This document shows, one piece after another, positions 28,927 to 36,343 of a stretch of 64,000 bases of DNA (within the stretch, counting starts at the first letter, position 1; every line of letters starts with the position of its first letter). The stretch lies in NCBI RefSeq assembly GCF_003987475.1, contig NZ_PIQH01000010.1, positions 1-64,000 on the forward strand, written 5' to 3'. The translations under genes and the position numbers were made by a program. The stretch comes from Idiomarina tyrosinivorans. Lineage in GTDB: Bacteria; Pseudomonadota; Gammaproteobacteria; Enterobacterales; Alteromonadaceae. A model generated the notes under the pieces. That model was not told where the DNA came from. It worked only from the letters and a program-made list of their open reading frames with translations, and made no database searches.

Positions 28927-29463
28927 CTAAAAAGTACAGAGGGTATAGTAAGGAATCGCCTTATCGTCGAGACGGTCGATTCCCGCTAGGTCCTGCAATC
29001 CGATCACAAATGCGGCTTCGTGCAACGTTGCGCCCGTTTGCTTGAGTAGCTCTGCCGCGGCAAGAACGGTACCACCAGTCGCTAACAAATCATCAATCAA
29101 CACCACCTTATCGTCGGCGCTTAAACCATCTTGATGAATCTGTAGCTCATCTTCGCCGTACTCCAAGGCGTAGCGTTGCGAATACACCTCACGAGGTAAT
29201 TTCCCGGGCTTACGCAACAACGTGAAGCCTACGCCCAAGGCATAAGCCAGTGCTGAGCCGAAGATGAATCCGCGCGCTTCAATCCCAACAATTTGGGTTA
29301 TACCTTGCTGTTGATAGCGCTGTTTGAACAGATCGATGGTGACATGCAGCGCTTCTGCATTAGCGAGTAGCGGCGTAATATCACGGAAAGTCACCCCAGC
29401 TTTAGGGTAGTTTTCGATAGTTCCGATCGCTTGTTTAATGATTGCCAGCGACTGTTCCGTCAT
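28927..29463 (-). CDS. apt: Adenine phosphoribosyltransferase
   Basis: Salvages adenine with PRPP to AMP. A 178-residue member of the type I PRTase family: YPKAGVTFRDITPLL near the N-terminus, GIEARGFIFGSALAYALG, and the PRPP motif VVLIDDLLATGGTVLAAAELL. It lies 12 bases downstream of the response regulator gene and upstream of dnaX; apt-dnaX adjacency is the same as in E. coli. Confidence 0.96.
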   Translation of the reverse strand: MTEQSLAIIKQAIGTIENYPKAGVTFRDITPLLANAEALHVTIDLFKQRYQQQGITQIVGIEARGFIFGSALAYALGVGFTLLRKPGKLPREVYSQRYALEYGEDELQIHQDGLSADDKVVLIDDLLATGGTVLAAAELLKQTGATLHEAAFVIGLQDLAGIDRLDDKAIPYYTLCTF

Positions 29464-29475
29464 GCTTATTTCCTA

Positions 29476-29853
29476 TTACGCGACATCACGCATCATGAAC
29501 CCTTTCACTGCTTCCGCCAGTGCGTCATCCGCGATCGGTTTTGCGAGGCAATCGTTCGCCCCAGATTTCAGCGCCTGTGGTTCTATCTGATTGATTTCCT
29601 GCGTGGTCATCAGCAACAGTGGCGTATCCTCATAGTCCACCAACTCGCGTAAATTACGCAACAAGCTAAGGCCGTCCATGACTGGCATCTTGTGGTCTAA
29701 TAACACCAAGTCAAATTGCCCTTGTTTAGCCTGGCTTAAGCCGTCTAGACCATCGACTGCTTCAGTTATTTCGGCATTGACAGTACGTAGCGCTTGAACG
29801 AGTTGAGCGCGGGTACGAGGGTTGTCCTCTACCAGCAGAATACGAAAGCTCAT
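29476..29853 (-). CDS. Single-domain response regulator (CheY-like)
   Basis: A stand-alone receiver domain of 125 residues with no output domain. The acidic pair is E9-D10, the phosphoacceptor D53 in LVLLDHKMPVMDG, the switch Thr about 83-84, and Lys105 in AKP. The gene begins ATGA, overlapping the stop of a 40-residue membrane peptide gene, and lies 12 bases before apt. No histidine kinase is in the window, so partner and target are unknown. Its placement after hvfABC suggests, but does not prove, cotranscription with that system. Confidence 0.85.
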   Translation of the reverse strand: MSFRILLVEDNPRTRAQLVQALRTVNAEITEAVDGLDGLSQAKQGQFDLVLLDHKMPVMDGLSLLRNLRELVDYEDTPLLLMTTQEINQIEPQALKSGANDCLAKPIADDALAEAVKGFMMRDVA

Positions 29854-29972
29854 GACGACAAAAATTTAATCAATCCGAGTACTGCGGGCAAACTCACTGT
29901 GCAGAAAAATACAACGACAGCCAGTGGGATAAAACGTTTTTTTGTGCTTTCACGAAATGCTACATCAGACAT
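29850..29972 (-). CDS. Small single-pass membrane protein, unannotated type
   Basis: A 40-residue ORF starting MSDVAFRESTKKRF, followed by a long hydrophobic stretch (residues about 15-37, IPLAVVVFFCTVSLPAVLGL) and ending LIKFLSS. AGAGAGG lies 8 bases before the ATG, which is a good ribosome site. Its stop overlaps the response regulator start as ATGA, and it begins 31 bases after the hvfC stop. It has one probable membrane helix with a basic N-terminal side and one Cys in the helix. I do not recognise a family. The ribosome site and tight overlap make it likely to be translated. Confidence 0.65.
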   Translation of the reverse strand: MSDVAFRESTKKRFIPLAVVVFFCTVSLPAVLGLIKFLSS

Positions 29973-30003
29973 GCGGCTTACCTCTCTTTTTACCGGTCGC
30001 TGA

Positions 30004-30738
30004 TCATACTGGATCCTTGGACCGGTTAAAAGGAGGAATCAGTACTTTCACTTCCGCTAAATTCATTAACGCCTGTTGGACCGTTTCAGCCACCTCGGAA
30101 GGAGGCTGCTGACTCAGTACCGATTGCGAGAATTGGATGATTTGACGTTGCGAAAAGCCCTCCTCAGGCCAACCAGATTGGTGTAACCATAGTGCCGTAA
30201 GCGGCGATAACTTACTAAACCGAATCGCTCCATGGGGTTGTCGATACACCACAAAGCACTGCGCTTGTGGCAGCGGTTGTTGAGGCTGAAATGCTGGAGA
30301 TATTTTATCCAGCGGATAAAAACTCACAATCGATTGCAGGGTCGAATTCCAACGCCATAGCGTTGCGCGCTCTGCAACCTGTTCTGGCGCGTTTGCCACA
30401 GCAACCTCAAGCCACTCATAATACGCCAAGTCAGCGGCAAAAGCCGGTAGCTCTGGTTGCTTTTGACAAAATTCAGCAAAGCTCTGGGCTATGTGGTGAA
30501 AGTACGGTGAATGCCCGCGAAATTGACTATAGAACTGCTGTAGCAATGCCGCTTTACGTGGCTTGGATAGCAGTGACAACAACACTGGGAATGCCCGCTC
30601 GACAAATTGGACGATGTTGTTTTTCAGCAAACGCCGATAAACCGCGAGCCGCTGTGGCTCAACATCCACTAAGTCCTTTTGTTCTGGCGCCGTCACCGCT
30701 TCAACGAAACGTTGTTGAATGCGCTGAAAGTCATGCAT
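30004..30738 (-). CDS. hvfC: HvfC/BufC-type protein (DUF2063, DNA-binding-like)
   Basis: A 244-residue protein of the DUF2063 family, the usual partner of DUF692 enzymes (as MbnC partners MbnB). The N-terminal domain has the family's pattern: LAVYRRLLKNNIVQFVERAFPVLLSLL, then HSPYFHHIAQSFAEFCQ and YYEWLEVAV. The C-terminal part is a variable substrate-recognition domain (LSPLTALWLHQSGWPEEGFSQRQ). The start is the ATG at 30736-30738, which overlaps the hvfB stop by 8 bases; the upstream start at 30849 would lie in hvfB. In studied systems this subunit recognises the precursor peptide and supports the DUF692 oxidase. Confidence 0.88.
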   Translation of the reverse strand: MHDFQRIQQRFVEAVTAPEQKDLVDVEPQRLAVYRRLLKNNIVQFVERAFPVLLSLLSKPRKAALLQQFYSQFRGHSPYFHHIAQSFAEFCQKQPELPAFAADLAYYEWLEVAVANAPEQVAERATLWRWNSTLQSIVSFYPLDKISPAFQPQQPLPQAQCFVVYRQPHGAIRFSKLSPLTALWLHQSGWPEEGFSQRQIIQFSQSVLSQQPPSEVAETVQQALMNLAEVKVLIPPFNRSKDPV

Positions 30739-31564
30739 ATACGGAAGCCGCCTCGTACTGCAACTGTTTGATGGTTTCCAATTCACCCGTGAGTGCGGTG
30801 AGACTGGGAACGTTGCTGTCGCGTTCGAGTAATGTTGGCCGTTGGCCATGGTGTCGATAGCTATAAGCTAATAATTCATAAACCTCCTGCTTGATTGCGC
30901 TCGCATGAGTATCAACTAAAAGCTCAGCAGATTCTTCGCTATGTCCAGCGATGTGGTAATAGCGAATCGCATGGCTTGGAATGGCGCGGATAAACTCGCG
31001 TGCATCATAACCGTGATTAAAACTATTAACGTATACGTTATTGACATCGAGTAGCAGTTCGCAAGCGGACTCGGTTAATACTTGTAGGATAAAATCTATT
31101 TCACGGATATCTCGTGCTAACGGCGTGTAATAGGAAATATTTTCCAGCACTAACGGCCGCTCTATAATGTCCTGCACTTGCCGCACCCTTTCAGCAACAT
31201 AACTCGCTGCGTCGGCGGTAAACGGCATCGGCATCAAGTCGTACAAATGGCCTTGAAAGCTACTAAAACTGAGGTGCTCGCTATACCAAGGGATTTGATA
31301 GCGTTGCAAAAACGTTTTAATTTCGAGCAGGAAGGTCTTGTCTAACGGTTCGGGTCCGCCGATAGATAACGACAAGCCATGGCACCGGAGCGGATAGTTC
31401 GCAGCAATTTGGTCCAATAGCTCCAGCTTGCGTGGTTGGGTCATCCAGTTTTCTGGCGCCAATTCCAAAAAATCACATACTAAGCGGCGCTGTTGCGCCG
31501 CTTCAATAAGGGGTCGCCGTAGACCAATTCCTACAGCTTGACGTGGTAACGTGTTATTCGTCAT
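30731..31564 (-). CDS. hvfB: HvfB/BufB-type multinuclear iron enzyme (DUF692)
   Basis: DUF692 TIM-barrel oxygenase. In the studied methanobactin, bufferin and Hvf systems such enzymes modify cysteines of a precursor peptide, forming oxazolone or thiooxazole copper ligands. The 277-residue protein (ATG at 31562-31564, MTNNTLPRQAVGIG) has the candidate metal ligands H62, E96-H97, E141-N142, D173-N175, H184, H204-H208 and E247. The motifs are CHGLSLS, YSEHLSF, LENISYY, LDVNNVYVN, YYHIAGHSE and LLERDSN. Its start overlaps the 3' end of hvfA by 11 bases and its stop overlaps hvfC. Confidence 0.92.
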   Translation of the reverse strand: MTNNTLPRQAVGIGLRRPLIEAAQQRRLVCDFLELAPENWMTQPRKLELLDQIAANYPLRCHGLSLSIGGPEPLDKTFLLEIKTFLQRYQIPWYSEHLSFSSFQGHLYDLMPMPFTADAASYVAERVRQVQDIIERPLVLENISYYTPLARDIREIDFILQVLTESACELLLDVNNVYVNSFNHGYDAREFIRAIPSHAIRYYHIAGHSEESAELLVDTHASAIKQEVYELLAYSYRHHGQRPTLLERDSNVPSLTALTGELETIKQLQYEAASVYA

Positions 31565-31958
31565 CTGAATCGTCTGATGAATCCTCAGAACCACATTTAC
31601 CTTCGCCGCACTTACCCTCTTCCATTTTGTCCTTCATCATTTCGCGTTTGTCCATGTGCTCTTTCTGCATCATCTCACGCTTTTCCATGCTCTTTTCTTT
31701 CATCATATCGCGCTTTTCCATGGCCTTCTCTTTCATCATATCAGCCTTGTCATGCGCTTGTTCTTTCATTTCTTTGCCTTTCTCTTGACCGTCTTGTTTC
31801 ATCTCGTCTTTTTTACCACCGCAAGCACCGTTAAGGTTTGCACGCTCGTAACCACTACCTAAATCCATCGCGTGAACCGTTGTTGCTTGTGCTTCCATTG
31901 CAGCCCCTGCAGCTAACGACAGCAGCGCAGCAGCAGAAATAGACATTGATTTGTTCAT
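31554..31958 (-). CDS. hvfA: HvfA-like copper-binding RiPP precursor with EGKCG motifs
   Basis: A 134-residue protein with a signal peptide (about 1-25, MNKSMSISAAALLSLAAG, cleavage near AQA), a GACGG motif (C46), a charged region, four 11-residue Met-rich repeats (73-116), and two tandem EGKCG motifs (114-118 and 119-123) before an Asp/Ser tail. EGKCG is the site reported to be modified in HvfA proteins. I start it at the ATG at 31956-31958; the longer frame to 32009 lacks a signal-like N-terminus. It is followed by hvfB and hvfC with overlapping genes. Predicted export to the periplasm, with copper handling as the role, is inference from family knowledge. Confidence 0.85.
   Translation of the reverse strand: MNKSMSISAAALLSLAAGAAMEAQATTVHAMDLGSGYERANLNGACGGKKDEMKQDGQEKGKEMKEQAHDKADMMKEKAMEKRDMMKEKSMEKREMMQKEHMDKREMMKDKMEEGKCGEGKCGSEDSSDDSDDE
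31611..31742 (-). repeat. Four tandem 33-base repeats inside hvfA
   Basis: Four in-frame 33-base units encode DMMKEKAMEKR, DMMKEKSMEKR, EMMQKEHMDKR and EMMKDKMEEGK. The first two are nearly identical in DNA as well. The last unit merges into the first EGKCG motif. An 11-residue period with paired Met fits a charged helix or hendecad coiled coil. Confidence 0.85.
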
Positions 31959-32003
31959 CGTCGTACCCTTCATTGTTGTGAGAAATTGTCTATGAATAAC
32001 ATA

Positions 32004-32035
32004 GGACAAGACCCGAGAAAGGCAAATAACTTACA
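32004..32035 (-). promoter_or_regulatory. Candidate hvfA promoter, ECF-sigma-like
   Basis: On the minus strand TGTAAG (32035-32030) is followed, 17 bases on, by GTCTTGTCC (32012-32004), 45 bases upstream of the hvfA ATG. No sigma-70 pair is obvious. Related operons in other bacteria are controlled by ECF sigma factors, whose -35 boxes often contain GTAA, so this is a possible ECF promoter. The match is judged by eye and is weak evidence. Confidence 0.3.
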
Positions 32036-32061
32036 AAAAAATTACATTGTGCAACAGACAT

Positions 32062-32092
32062 AAAAAAAGCCCGCTAAGTAGCGAGCTTTTTT
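32062..32092. terminator. Terminator between the TPR gene and hvfA
   Basis: An 8-base GC-rich stem (AGCCCGCT / AGCGAGCT, one G-U) with an A run before and a T run after on either strand. On the minus strand it follows the TPR gene stop by 17 bases, ending the TonB2-type operon. hvfA therefore probably has its own promoter. Confidence 0.85.
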
Positions 32093-32108
32093 CTTCAGTT
32101 TTACTTTA

Positions 32109-33404
32109 CTAAAGGTCTACGCCTTTACGCTTAGCGGTTGAACGAATGTAACCTTCCCAGCTACGCGCATTTCTGCTCTGGTTGCTGTAGTCTTTCGCTT
32201 GGTTAACATAGCTCAATGCTTTGCGATAATCGCCACCGTAGAAATAGGCTTCTGCTAAAGACATTAGGACTTTTCCTTTATCTTTGCCTTCAGCATAGTC
32301 CAGTGCTTTCAAATAAGGTGTTGTTGCAGCAACGTATTGCTCATTCAACACTAACACTGAACCTTGCTTACGTAGGTACTCCGCCTTATCTTCAGCCTCT
32401 TCGGCTTTATCTGCAGCTTTACCGTACCAATGCGCAGCCTCTTTCCACTCTTTCGCTCGGTGATAACTTGATGCGATACTGCTTAGCACGTTCTCAGTAG
32501 CTTTCACATCGCCCTTCGCCACATGTTCCTCTAAAACTTTGGCCGCTTTATAAGGAACGCCGTTGTTATCGTACAACTGCGACAAAATACGGTAATGCGA
32601 TTCAGATGTTAGATAGCCAGCAATGTCTGCAATTTCCATTGTTTCCAATGCTTTCTCATACTGTTCATTAGACAGATACATCTGCGCCAACTGAGGCCAC
32701 CACTTAGTGACTTCTGGCATTTTGTTTAAGCCTTCGATCAACACGTCAATGGCCTCATCATACATCTTGCGTTCATAGTAAGACGCCATCATCAACGTAT
32801 AGAGATCTTTATTGGGCTTGTCCGACGCTGCTAACGCCATGCGCGCAGGTGGAATAATCTTTGCGTACTGTTTAGTTTGATAATAAGCATTAGCAAGATA
32901 GTTCAGTACGCTCGGATCTTTTTCGCCGGTAAACATCAACCATTTTTTCAAATAGTCAATCGACTGCTCGTACTTCTCTTCTTGCAGGCTTAATTGGCCA
33001 ACTAACTTGAGCACTGCAGCTTGATCGTTCCAACCGAGAACATTTGCATCAGCAGCTTCTTTCAACATCGAAAGTGCTATAGCAGATTTCTCATTTGCCG
33101 CATATAAGTTACCAAGGAAACGTTCCAAATACGCTTTATCGTATTCTGAATTCGTTTCAACCTGTTCAAGCATTGCGATCGCACCCTGAAGGTCATCTTC
33201 TTCATAGAGTTTGAACGCTTCCATGATCGAGCGACCAACGCTCTGTGACGCCGCTTTATTTTTACGGCTATCTTTCATGGTTTGAACGTCTTCTTTACTT
33301 GGTAGCTTAAAACCTAAGTCTTGTTCTTGCGCATTCGTCAAAGGAGAAACTAGTAAACCCACAAGAAGTAGACTGATCGAAGTAATATTACGAATATTCT
33401 TCAT
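32109..33404 (-). CDS. TPR repeat protein of the TonB2 operon
   Basis: A 431-residue periplasmic protein with a signal peptide (about 1-25, ending LTNA) and a chain of tetratricopeptide-like helical repeats from about residue 50 to the C-terminus (for example YLANAYYQTKQYAKII, LMMASYYERKMYDEAIDVL, SLAEAYFYGGDYRKALSYV). It is the last gene of the DUF3450-ttpC-exbB-exbD-tonB unit and starts 3 bases after tonB. In vibrios a similar TPR gene follows TonB2 systems; it may be a scaffold for the complex. No other domain is seen. Confidence 0.88.
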   Translation of the reverse strand: MKNIRNITSISLLLVGLLVSPLTNAQEQDLGFKLPSKEDVQTMKDSRKNKAASQSVGRSIMEAFKLYEEDDLQGAIAMLEQVETNSEYDKAYLERFLGNLYAANEKSAIALSMLKEAADANVLGWNDQAAVLKLVGQLSLQEEKYEQSIDYLKKWLMFTGEKDPSVLNYLANAYYQTKQYAKIIPPARMALAASDKPNKDLYTLMMASYYERKMYDEAIDVLIEGLNKMPEVTKWWPQLAQMYLSNEQYEKALETMEIADIAGYLTSESHYRILSQLYDNNGVPYKAAKVLEEHVAKGDVKATENVLSSIASSYHRAKEWKEAAHWYGKAADKAEEAEDKAEYLRKQGSVLVLNEQYVAATTPYLKALDYAEGKDKGKVLMSLAEAYFYGGDYRKALSYVNQAKDYSNQSRNARSWEGYIRSTAKRKGVDL

Positions 33405-33407
33405 GTC

Positions 33408-34022
33408 TTAATTCTCCTGTAGGTTAAAGTCTAGCTGAACGGTCATCCCTTCTTGACGAACAGGCTTACCATCGATCACTTTGGGTTTATATTTCCAGCG
33501 AAGCAAAGCACGGCGTGCTTCCCTGTCAAACACCCGACGAGGCTGCGAATCAAGAATTTCGACGTCGGTTACATTACCCGCTTCATCAATCGTAAAGCTG
33601 AGCTGTACCCACCCTTCGATGCCCCCGCGAGCTGCTTCCTGAGGATACCGTGGCTCGATACGAACGATTGGGGTTGCGTCACCATCTTGGTTCATAAATG
33701 AACCTGGCCCTGCAAGACCTGTATCAGCACCGCCAACGTTAACATCAAAGCCTAGGTCCATATTCAGACCACCAGCATCAGACGTATCAGGCGTAGAGTC
33801 TGGTGTCTGAGGTGGTCGACTAGGTGGCGGCGGTGGTGGCGGCGGTGTCCGCCGACGTTGCTGCACATCCGATTCAGGTGGCGACGTTACGATATCAATC
33901 ACTGGTGTTGGTGGTGGCGCTTCATTACGCTTAGCGCCACCTCCAATCAAGTAAGCCATAAAGACAAACAAACCAAACGTAACGGCGGCACCTAATAGTA
34001 AAGATACTAAAAAGCGCACCAT
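33408..34022 (-). CDS. tonB2: TonB2-like energy transducer
   Basis: A 204-residue TonB family protein: an N-terminal membrane anchor (about 4-27), a Pro-rich periplasmic spacer with a run of eight prolines (about 60-67), and a C-terminal TonB domain (about 118-202) with EPRYPQEAARGGIEGWVQLSFTI, the VEILDSQPRRVFDREARRAL stretch and RWKYKP. It passes proton-motive energy from ExbB/ExbD to outer-membrane receptors. It starts 1 base after exbD. Confidence 0.93.
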   Translation of the reverse strand: MVRFLVSLLLGAAVTFGLFVFMAYLIGGGAKRNEAPPPTPVIDIVTSPPESDVQQRRRTPPPPPPPPSRPPQTPDSTPDTSDAGGLNMDLGFDVNVGGADTGLAGPGSFMNQDGDATPIVRIEPRYPQEAARGGIEGWVQLSFTIDEAGNVTDVEILDSQPRRVFDREARRALLRWKYKPKVIDGKPVRQEGMTVQLDFNLQEN

Positions 34023-34023
34023 A

Positions 34024-34425
34024 TTAGTTAGTCTCCGCGGCTATGGATATCTTATCGATACCCGCTTCCTTCACTTGATCCATGACTTGAACCACAACAC
34101 CGTGCTCAGCTTTTTTATCAGCTTGAATGACCACCAAATCAGTAGGCTGTTCGGCGACCATACGCTCGACGTTTGCGGCAACACGTTCGACATCGACCAT
34201 GCGTTTATCCATCCAGACTTCACCATTTGCACGAATAGCAATAAAGATATTCGCCGACGGCTTTTTCTGTGCCTGGCTGGCTTCCGGTTTATTCACATCG
34301 ATACCTGCTTCTTTTACGAACGAGGTCGTAACAATGAAGAAGATCAACATGATAAATACGATATCGAGCATCGGCGTCATATCAATCGACGCGTCTTCCT
34401 CTTCTCGAATACGTTTACGTGCCAT
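34024..34425 (-). CDS. exbD2: ExbD2-type biopolymer transport protein
   Basis: Inner-membrane proton-channel subunit, 133 residues, with one N-terminal helix. The essential Asp is D21 in DMTPMLDIVFIMLIFFIV, equivalent to D25 of E. coli ExbD. The periplasmic domain has the usual VVIQADKKAEHG. It lies 12 bases downstream of exbB2. Confidence 0.94.
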   Translation of the reverse strand: MARKRIREEEDASIDMTPMLDIVFIMLIFFIVTTSFVKEAGIDVNKPEASQAQKKPSANIFIAIRANGEVWMDKRMVDVERVAANVERMVAEQPTDLVVIQADKKAEHGVVVQVMDQVKEAGIDKISIAAETN

Positions 34426-34437
34426 AATTATACTCTC

Positions 34438-34962
34438 TTAGTGATGTGGCAAACTGTCGACCAAATTCTCTTTCGCACGTTTCACCTTACTTTCAAGGCG
34501 AGTGGCGAAGAACATGCCAGATAGGGCCGCAACCATACCTGCCATTGTTGGGATAGTCGCCATTGAAATACCAGACGCCATCAAACGAGGGTTACCCGTT
34601 CCTTGTACCGCCATAATTTCAAACACTGCAATCATCCCAGTTACCGTGCCTAGCAGTCCAACCAGCGGACATAATGCTACACAGGTTTTGATCAACAGAA
34701 TTCGTGCATTCAGTTTATCATTCGCTTCGGAAATCCATGCTTCACGGATTCTATGGGCGTACCACGAGGTCGTATCTTTCCGTTCGTTCCAGCGTGCGAT
34801 GATCGTATCACGTAGTTTTGGAAACGAATTCACTAGATACCAGTAGCGCTCGATCATCAGTACCCACATTAGAAAGAGCACCCCCATGACAACGTATAAA
34901 ACGTTGCCACCGGTCGCAATAAAATCCCTGACAGATTCCCAAAGTTCTATCAGGTAAAGCAT
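34438..34962 (-). CDS. exbB2: ExbB2-type MotA/TolQ/ExbB proton channel protein
   Basis: A 174-residue proton-channel subunit with three membrane helices. The conserved block LCPLVGLLGTVTGMIAVFEIM and the GISMATIPTMAGMVAALSGMFF helix are the family signature. The start is the ATG at 34960-34962 (MLYLIELWESV); the longer frame to 35055 reads into ttpC and gives an unnatural N-terminus. It starts 4 bases after ttpC. Confidence 0.93.
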   Translation of the reverse strand: MLYLIELWESVRDFIATGGNVLYVVMGVLFLMWVLMIERYWYLVNSFPKLRDTIIARWNERKDTTSWYAHRIREAWISEANDKLNARILLIKTCVALCPLVGLLGTVTGMIAVFEIMAVQGTGNPRLMASGISMATIPTMAGMVAALSGMFFATRLESKVKRAKENLVDSLPHH

Positions 34963-34966
34963 AGGA

Positions 34967-36343
34967 TTACTCCTTCTCCGAATGCGCTGCGATGATGCCT
35001 GCAGCCTGCTCGTCCAACACGTGAACGATATGCTTGCTGCGAGCAGCCACAACACTGTGCGCTAGAATCAATGGAATCGCGGCAATCAAACCTTCAGCGG
35101 TGGTTACCAATGCCATTGAAATATCACCTGCCATGATCTTCGGATCACCAGTACCAAACAAGGTGATTGATTGGAACGTACCAATCATACCAACAACCGT
35201 ACCCAATAGACCCAATAATGGAGCGATAGCAGCAAAAATCTTAATAACGTTAACCCCGGCATCGATGCTTGGCGTCTCACGCATGATAGCTTCGTCCAGT
35301 TTCAACTCTAGGTTTTCAGCGTCAGCTGATTTGTTCTCGTGATAAACCTTCAAAATGCGACCCAAAGGGTTCTTCTCTGAAGGGTTAGAGATGTTTTTCA
35401 GCTGTGAGCGAATTTTTGCATTAACACTTGCCAAGGTAACCAGCTTGTAAATAGAGATTAATAAGCCAAGAATCAGTACTGCGGTAATAACATAACCGAC
35501 TGTGCCACCTTGGTGATAACGCTCTTCAAGTGTCGCTTTCTGCGTTAACAAGCTCAGGATTTGACCTTTTGACGGATCCAGATAAACACCGGCATAACCG
35601 CTTGTTGTATCAGTAAACTCATCCGCTTCATCAGTGACATAACCATCTGGTTGACGACCAAGAGGCTGAACTTGCTCAGTTGCATCGCTATAGATTAGGT
35701 AATCACCATTTGGCGCGATCAAGTTGAATACGCCGACACGGGTAACGTCCATTTGCTCAGTTCCGCCGTCCAACAAGGTTACGGTGGTAGGGAACGTCAC
35801 AACTTTACCTGACTCAGTCATCTCAGTAAGCAACGCTAACCAAAGCTCTTCCAGCTCTTTCAACGTAGGAAGTTCTTTCGCTTCAGAAAGACTTTCCAAC
35901 ACGTCTTCACGACCTGGATACTGCGCGCTAATAATTGAAGTAGCGATACGGCCAATGGTATCTGTCGCAGCGCCACGAACGACACCGAACATTTCACCTA
36001 ATGTACCTTTCGCGTTTTCCAATTCAGTTTCTTTGTTTGCCAGCTTGATCTCGTTTTCAGAGAAGGCTTTCTGCAAACGCTGACTGCGAGCTTCCTCGTC
36101 TTTTAGCTGTTGCTTGGCTTTATTTAACATTGCCTGCTTGTCGGCTTTTTCCGCCAAGAAGGCTTGCTCGCGTTGCTGATCAAGCTTACGTGAGGATACT
36201 CGATTTTCTTTGACCAATTGAAGCAGTTGATCAAGTGATTTTGCTTCTGGCTGCGTTTGTTGCTGGGCGTTTGCAGCGATTGTCGTACCAGCAGTTAAGG
36301 TAACGGTTGCTGCGACCAGCACATTTTTCAATAGCTGTTTCAT
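34967..36343 (-). CDS. ttpC: TtpC-like large MotA/TolQ/ExbB protein
   Basis: A 458-residue fusion-type protein: a signal peptide (1-27), a long charged coiled coil (about 35-115), a periplasmic domain, a membrane helix (about 282-300), and a C-terminal ExbB-like channel domain (about 375-440) with IAPLLGLLGTVVGMIGTFQSITLFG. In vibrios TtpC is an extra component required by TonB2 systems and is thought to add a periplasmic module. Its start overlaps the DUF3450 stop by 4 bases. Confidence 0.92.
   Translation of the reverse strand: MKQLLKNVLVAATVTLTAGTTIAANAQQQTQPEAKSLDQLLQLVKENRVSSRKLDQQREQAFLAEKADKQAMLNKAKQQLKDEEARSQRLQKAFSENEIKLANKETELENAKGTLGEMFGVVRGAATDTIGRIATSIISAQYPGREDVLESLSEAKELPTLKELEELWLALLTEMTESGKVVTFPTTVTLLDGGTEQMDVTRVGVFNLIAPNGDYLIYSDATEQVQPLGRQPDGYVTDEADEFTDTTSGYAGVYLDPSKGQILSLLTQKATLEERYHQGGTVGYVITAVLILGLLISIYKLVTLASVNAKIRSQLKNISNPSEKNPLGRILKVYHENKSADAENLELKLDEAIMRETPSIDAGVNVIKIFAAIAPLLGLLGTVVGMIGTFQSITLFGTGDPKIMAGDISMALVTTAEGLIAAIPLILAHSVVAARSKHIVHVLDEQAAGIIAAHSEKE

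Follow-up and report, generated by a model that had tools for sequence, protein, structure and literature searches.

A probable hvfABC copper-peptide operon with an unusual methionine-rich precursor in Idiomarina tyrosinivorans

Organization of the hvfABC Locus

The window analyzed here is a 64,000-nucleotide stretch of Idiomarina tyrosinivorans DNA (contig NZ_PIQH01000010.1; source genome of 2.43 Mb in 21 contigs), and the subject is a minus-strand cluster of three genes, hvfA, hvfB and hvfC, which very probably encodes a copper-binding peptide and its modification enzymes. All coordinates are positions in the window, and L and G codes denote loci and genomes of the comparison set. The gene order on the minus strand is exbB1, exbB2, exbD, tonB, TPR, a terminator, hvfA, hvfB, hvfC, a microprotein gene, a receiver gene, apt, dnaX, ybaB and recR. 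The last four are identified by Pfam, and the name apt is one we take to fit the phosphoribosyltransferase domain of its product. All five frames from hvfA to the receiver gene are free of internal stops. hvfA runs from ATG 31958 to a stop ending at 31554, hvfB from ATG 31564 to 30731 and hvfC from ATG 30738 to 30004, so that hvfA and hvfB overlap by 11 bases and hvfB and hvfC by 8. Between hvfC and the microprotein gene lie 31 bases, and the latter gene shares 4 bases with the receiver gene. The 11- and 8-base overlaps and the coordinates in a first-pass annotation of this DNA proved exact when the minus-strand frames were re-checked. The operon and its flanking signals are as follows.

31554..31958, minus strand: hvfA, exported precursor, 134 aa, 3 Cys, 18 Met (NF050137, 23 bits, cut-off 19.5; NF050188, 23.2 bits, cut-off 95)
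31635..31769, minus strand: 33-bp (11-residue) tandem array, 4.1 copies, encoding the Met-rich charged HvfA spacer (repeat analysis)
31590..31619, minus strand: EGKCGEGKCG, two predicted modification sites, Cys117 and Cys122 (sequence; NF050137 match)
30731..31564, minus strand: hvfB, MNIO (DUF692) maturase, 277 aa (NF003818, 368.6 bits, cut-off 360; PF05114, 1.5e-96; 3bww, 1.5e-63)
30004..30738, minus strand: hvfC, PME1/DUF2063-RRE partner (NF050145, 188.8 bits, cut-off 142; PF09836, 4.1e-17; PF22106, 2.4e-13; 3dee, a solved relative, 6e-09)
32009..32034, minus strand: possible promoter-like element of extracytoplasmic function (ECF) type, GTAAG-N16-GGTCT, 5' of hvfA, weakly supported in this genome
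32062..32093, minus strand: intrinsic terminator in the gap between the TonB2 operon and hvfA (terminator scan)

Assignment of HvfB and HvfC

HvfB and HvfC both score above their curated NCBIfam cut-offs in the profile search for DUF692 and DUF2063 that the first-pass annotation had proposed, and the Pfam matches listed above, together with that of the receiver (PF00072, E = 6.5e-25), agree with its family calls. HvfB stays below the equivalog cut-offs of BufB (NF050167, 267.7 bits, cut-off 310) and of MbnB (TIGR04159, 50.2 bits, cut-off 325). Its closest solved relative is 3bww, followed by 8hci, a DUF692 family protein that we take to be TglH, and then by MbnB chains. Fourteen ligand or near-ligand positions (E34, E38, H62, H97, E141, D173, N175, N176, H204, H208, D218, H220, E247 and D249) are identical in 95 of 95 HvfB sequences. 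As read from the 3bww alignment, N175, D218 and H220 correspond to N175, D242 and H244 of Haemophilus HvfB; which of the remaining positions are iron ligands is presumed from MbnB structures. Alanine variants at N175, D242 and H244 of Haemophilus HvfB are described as inactive, and 3bww as a Histophilus somni MNIO that stands near HvfB (Manley et al., PMC13419390). An HvfB without conserved metal ligands had been named at the outset as a finding that would tell against the assignment; on the alignment, the ligand positions are kept.

The distribution of HvfA and HvfC points the same way. In a genus sample of 19 genomes, including that of the window, the HvfA domain (NF050137) is above cut-off in nine genomes, with weaker matches in G003 and G011, and HvfC is above cut-off in nine, with weaker matches in G006, G011 and G016. 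The two sets consist of the same nine genomes, which supports the HvfABC assignment. With the curated models and the retained ligands, this bears out the assignment made from the first reading: hvfABC is very probably an operon of the known oxazolin/captophorin (MNIO and PME1) copper-peptide type, inherited from ancestors at a long-standing site flanked by a TonB2 operon and apt, with bystanders for neighbors.

A distant MNIO with 28-29% identity to the window HvfB is found in L094 (G011) and L095 (G006), in both with no adjoining HvfC above cut-off.

The HvfA Precursor

The N-terminus of HvfA is signal-peptide-like as judged by eye, and its three Cys residues lie in two EGKCG motifs (Cys117 and Cys122) and one GACGG (Cys46), in keeping with the exported precursor with two EGKCG motifs that had been proposed. 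HvfA is above the cut-off of the KCGExKCG domain model, and a Pfam search assigns it to no family. Among 55 distinct EGKCG precursors, the window HvfA has the highest Met share (12.7%, counted from an upstream start codon), because its Met-rich part is the 33-bp tandem array, whose 4.1 copies match at 79% and encode units like DMMKEKxMEKR. HvfA is an unusual Met-rich precursor with few EGKCG motifs, a feature not named in the first-pass annotation. The low motif number is uncommon, not unique: one or two GKCG motifs are also found in the precursors of L145, L151, L168, L178, L192 and L211, several of which have related KCG variants. The two nearest relatives at the same site have nine (L171) and six (L153). 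The spacers of precursors located at another site in genus-mates hold single MM pairs, a plausible seed for the Met-rich array. The stretch MDLGSGYE fits the pattern (L/M)-x-(S/G/N)-G-Y, present in 34 of 56 precursors, and may be the HvfC recognition site. Among the literature matches listed, none deals, by title or abstract opening, with Met-rich EGKCG precursors or with an MNIO in Idiomarina.

Several features of the locus weigh against its assignment to the oxazolin/captophorin type. HvfA falls far short of the equivalog model NF050188, and it has two GKCG motifs where the median of the 55 precursors is seven. HvfB deviates at 10 near-invariant positions, the most of the 95 rows. A linked DoxX protein (HvfX) is missing from the ten neighboring proteins, and the only DoxX match of the genome lies on another contig. 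Finally, neither the precursor genes of L153 and L171, the closest relatives at this site, nor any of the seven further genus precursors inspected is preceded by the ECF-type element.

It is conceivable, though rather unlikely, that the product is a hybrid metallophore, in which this lineage has given up most of its thiooxazole sites in exchange for a tandemly amplified Met array. One or two thiooxazole Cu(I) sites would then stand beside a thioether Cu(I) stretch or one sensing methionine oxidation. Control might lie with an ECF sigma factor like those of Haemophilus and Neisseria, to whose targets methionine sulfoxide reductase also belongs. A natural precursor with two EGKCG motifs would in any case simplify work on copper stoichiometry.

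Relation to Known Copper-Peptide Systems

The window operon shares with the oxazolin system of nontypeable Haemophilus influenzae HvfABC an exported EGKCG precursor, an HvfB with the same ligand residues and an HvfC of the PME1/RRE type (Manley et al., PMC13419390). As described there, Haemophilus HvfA contains three AEGKCGEGKCG units (six Cys) and hvfX, encoding a DoxX-like protein, is part of the operon, whereas the window HvfA has one unit and a Met-rich spacer, with no linked doxX. With the captophorins fontiphorin and gonophorin it has in common the MNIO-PME1 pathway and the EGKCG core motifs, and by analogy a 5-thiooxazole product is expected; fontiphorin is reported to carry seven 5-thiooxazoles, and two or three would be possible in the window HvfA (PMC12668002). 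The Buf_EGKCG/oxazolin precursors likewise combine a signal peptide with EGKCG motifs beside MNIO and DUF2063 genes; the window HvfA differs from those described in having one EGKCG pair only and an 11-residue repeat without Cys (Antoine et al., PMC12452194). According to the same source, the core genes of such clusters occur in various combinations. The bufferins (Buf1/Buf2) share the enzyme and partner classes and the copper role with the window system, but the window HvfB is below the BufB cut-off. Pfam detects no DUF2282 precursor in hvfA, whose product has three Cys, and the Buf_6/12Cys precursor type was not run as a model.

On the preferred reading, hvfABC would have a transcript separate from that of the TonB2 operon, and its promoter may be of the stress (ECF sigma) type. 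By analogy with relatives, the RRE domain of HvfC would grip the N-terminal part of HvfA, and HvfC would help HvfB to reach the Fe(II)/Fe(III) state. HvfB would then use O2 to convert the Cys residues of the EGKCG motifs, and perhaps Cys46, to 5-thiooxazoles, and HvfA, exported by Sec, would tie up Cu(I) in the envelope. In this species the product is predicted to have just two heterocycles, or three at the most, along an extended Met-rich spacer. The thiooxazole and copper chemistry has been demonstrated in relatives and is inferred here.

Transcriptional Control

The terminator at 32093-32062 consists of a 14-pair stem and a T-run and ends the TonB2 transcript; it is judged by these features; the scan found three terminators versus 5.7 in shuffled sequences. 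In the gap between hvfC and the microprotein gene, no terminator is predicted. A scan for sigma-70-type promoters gave six sites versus 5.8 in shuffles, and none of eight Rfam matches between 28900 and 32400, all over the terminator region, is above the gathering score.

In the hvfA upstream regions of relatives, TGAAAT and GGTCTA recur at a fixed spacing. A strict ECF form occurs in 15 of 55 such regions (shuffle mean 0.01, maximum 1) and a loose form in 23 (shuffle mean 0.24, maximum 3); both patterns were chosen after the enriched words had been seen, and the set includes close relatives (Shewanella, Rheinheimera), so that the shuffle comparison overstates independence. At the window hvfA only the loose form is present, the strict form being absent from hvfA in this genome. 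Across the 19 genus genomes, strict TGAAAT-N16/19-GGTCTA is at chance level (22 matches versus 25 for the reversed control). The window element resembles the meningococcal sigma-E consensus, given as GTMAGBWTT, 12-13 bases, CGTCTAAH; in that source, the operon NMB2140-2145 includes a DoxX-like gene (PMC2893595). In H. influenzae, a doxX-COG3767-COG3220-DUF2063 cluster has been studied as an RpoE2 target (PMC7907618). On this basis, stress control of hvfABC by an ECF sigma factor is possible.

TGAAAT-N15/17-GGTCTA is common to the hvfA upstream regions of L136, L141, L144, L155, L163, L164, L179, L204 and others (Rheinheimera, Catenovulum, Shewanella and Bowmanella).

Distribution and Descent of hvfABC in the Genus

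At the site occupied in the window, hvfBC is intact in five of the 19 genus genomes, an hvfC remnant is left in one (G016) and no hvf gene is found in 13, of which four carry hvfABC elsewhere. hvfA is linked to hvfBC in five genomes (window, G001, G004, G006 and G012). In G005, G007, G008 and G015 (L075, L078, L074 and L073), hvfBC is found where the window has its operon, and some 390 to 630 kb separate it from hvfA on the contig they share; if it works, the pathway in these four genomes would run from a split cluster. The genus offers a natural presence/absence of hvf at one site, which can be reused as a test.

In L076 (G016), the interval between the TPR and microprotein genes contains no more of hvf than fragments of hvfC, a natural intermediate in the loss of hvf. 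The same interval of G006 (L081:6834-8147) contains a group II intron reverse transcriptase/maturase frame (PF00078, PF08388) in place of hvf.

In a tree of 95 HvfB rows, whose bootstrap is not fully settled, the window groups with L171 (Pseudidiomarina tainanensis) and L153 (Pseudidiomarina) at 99/90, and four same-site genus rows join this group next at 99/92. Because the tree places the window with same-site relatives, hvf at this site is assigned to vertical descent, and horizontal gain there is not favored. In the four genomes that have hvfABC at another site, the HvfB rows cluster with Acinetobacter (93/90, fork not starred), and the operon there looks like a separate acquisition.

The window HvfB has the longest end branch of the 95 (1.93), and its identity to four outgroups is 52% as compared with 54-57% in relatives, i.e., 2 to 5 points lower. 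In an identity control of 12 genes, in which the receiver is compared with one outgroup only, gaps of similar size occur in hvfC (28 versus 29-33) and dnaX (52 versus 52-58). Fast evolution of HvfB is given little weight, as the drop is small and hvfC and dnaX have similar gaps.

These features could also be read as signs of a decaying operon, in which the precursor sites are mostly lost and constraint on the maturase is relaxed, as a step toward the state of the 14 genus genomes in which the operon is missing from this site. The motif number of the window precursor is among the lowest of the 55, HvfB has 10 departures and the longest end branch, and G016 retains only an hvfC fragment. However, the three hvf frames are intact and still overlap, the HvfB ligand positions, the EGKCGEGKCG pair and MDLGSGYE are all kept, and the outgroup identity of HvfB is only slightly below that of relatives. 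Decay is considered improbable, and retention of the ancestral operon is preferred.

Neighboring Genes

The genes on either side of hvfABC lie outside it and are as follows.

29850..29972, minus strand: 40-aa microprotein with a single transmembrane segment, apt-linked family (synteny and profile)
29476..29853, minus strand: stand-alone receiver domain (PF00072; same-site ortholog in 19 of 19 genus genomes)
32109..36343, minus strand: TonB2-type operon exbB-exbB-exbD-tonB-TPR (19 of 19 genus genomes)
28927..29463, minus strand: apt, phosphoribosyltransferase domain, first gene of a conserved apt-dnaX-ybaB-recR block adjoining hvfABC (PF00156, 2.3e-16; synteny)

All 18 genus-mate loci (L072-L089, of 39 loci drawn) have both exbB1-exbB2-exbD-tonB-TPR and receiver-apt-dnaX-ybaB-recR. 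A microprotein frame lies between the TPR and receiver genes in all 18, and thus in 19 of 19 with the window; it encodes 40 to 43 aa from a conserved start, some frames being open further upstream. The microprotein gene, the receiver gene, apt and the TonB2 operon are chromosomal backbone and neighbors by descent. As this backbone is present in 19 of 19 genomes whatever their hvf state, the microprotein and the receiver are most probably not hvf parts. The first-pass annotation had proposed an undescribed variant system that included both, beside the TonB2 operon; all of these occur throughout the genus, in which hvfBC is intact at the site in only five genomes, and this proposal is not supported. 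Transcripts of hvf could run on into the microprotein and receiver genes.

As for the TonB2 operon, its adjacency to hvf is real (the operon ends at 32109), but a coupling of the two is not supported, in view of the synteny regardless of hvf and of the terminator before hvfA. A metal-uptake shuttle, in which the peptide is re-imported via the adjoining TonB2 system like methanobactin, would make use of this adjacency, which is seen in the genus and in 5 of 80 other hvf loci. It is nevertheless extremely unlikely: the TonB2 operon is present in every genus genome whatever the hvf state, its transcript is terminated before hvfA, and a family search of ten proteins encoded from 29479 to 36343 revealed no TonB-dependent receptor (elsewhere in the window only apt, dnaX, ybaB and recR were searched).

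What the window contains is a known copper-peptide pathway in a new host, with an unusual precursor, and the proposed new components are bystanders. Two well-conserved genes are thereby kept out of the description of the pathway.

The Microprotein Family Outside the Genus

In a scan of named genomes, 80 HvfB loci (the best 80 of at least 583 confirmed stretches) were compared. hvfBC adjoins apt-dnaX in 27 of them, including loci of Rheinheimera, Shewanella, Alteromonas, Paraglaciecola, Marinobacter, Bowmanella, Catenovulum and Pseudidiomarina, and the TonB2 operon lies upstream of hvf in the five mentioned above (20 of the 27 apt-side loci hold at least 3000 bases upstream of hvfB). A profile built from 23 microproteins and run on 120 sources yields 48 frames at E of 3.5e-13 or below, the next best being 0.48. 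It finds the microprotein in 26 of the 27 apt-side hvf loci (the exception is L208), 15 of which supplied training rows and 11 none. There is no match in the 53 hvf loci not beside apt (five of which hold fewer than 800 bases after hvfC, and one has no visible hvfC), nor at the four genus loci with hvfABC elsewhere.

Among 295 genomes of the order, the microprotein occurs in 118, a few of them weak (21 to 24 bits), and HvfC above cut-off in 79; 43 genomes have both, 75 the microprotein without HvfC above cut-off and 36 HvfC without the microprotein. In 42 of the 43 genomes with both, the microprotein gene is directly downstream of hvfC, the exception (G217) being a weak opposite-strand match. 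In 40 of 50 loci inspected (22 with hvfC, 18 without), the microprotein gene and apt lie together within one stretch of 3 to 7 kb. Six of the 50 have the microprotein without apt within reach, and four have no tblastn match (L253 and L256 from profile-positive genomes, L263 and L264 from profile-negative ones). ybaN (DUF454) is often found between the microprotein gene and apt. The microprotein is mostly an apt-side gene, upstream of which hvfABC is often, but not necessarily, present; in other genera too, the gene claimed earlier as an addition to hvf tracks apt instead.

The same counts bear on whether the microprotein and the receiver could be dedicated parts of an extended hvf system that act in sensing or pass the copper peptide on at the membrane. 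The 31-base distance from hvfC with no terminator predicted in between, the position directly after hvfC in nearly all genomes with both, and the somewhat higher frequency of the microprotein with HvfC (43/79) than without it (75/216, relatedness uncorrected) would fit such a system. But both genes are retained by the 14 genus genomes (of 19) whose site has no intact hvfBC, 75 of the 118 microprotein genomes are without HvfC above cut-off, and the profile is empty at the hvf loci away from apt, in the genus and beyond. An extended system is very unlikely, and is rejected on synteny and the microprotein profile; the bystander reading stands.

The microprotein itself is a conserved family without a Pfam or NCBIfam model: no family is above cut-off for the window copy or five relatives, and a literature search for such a gene found nothing. 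The analysis thus singles out an apt-linked membrane protein common in the order. Its members have 39 to 46 aa and a single transmembrane segment, and many share FK(D/E)PFN followed by a hydrophobic helix with LP; further copies include L146:7696-7815, L160:7633-7752 and L136:7647-7766.

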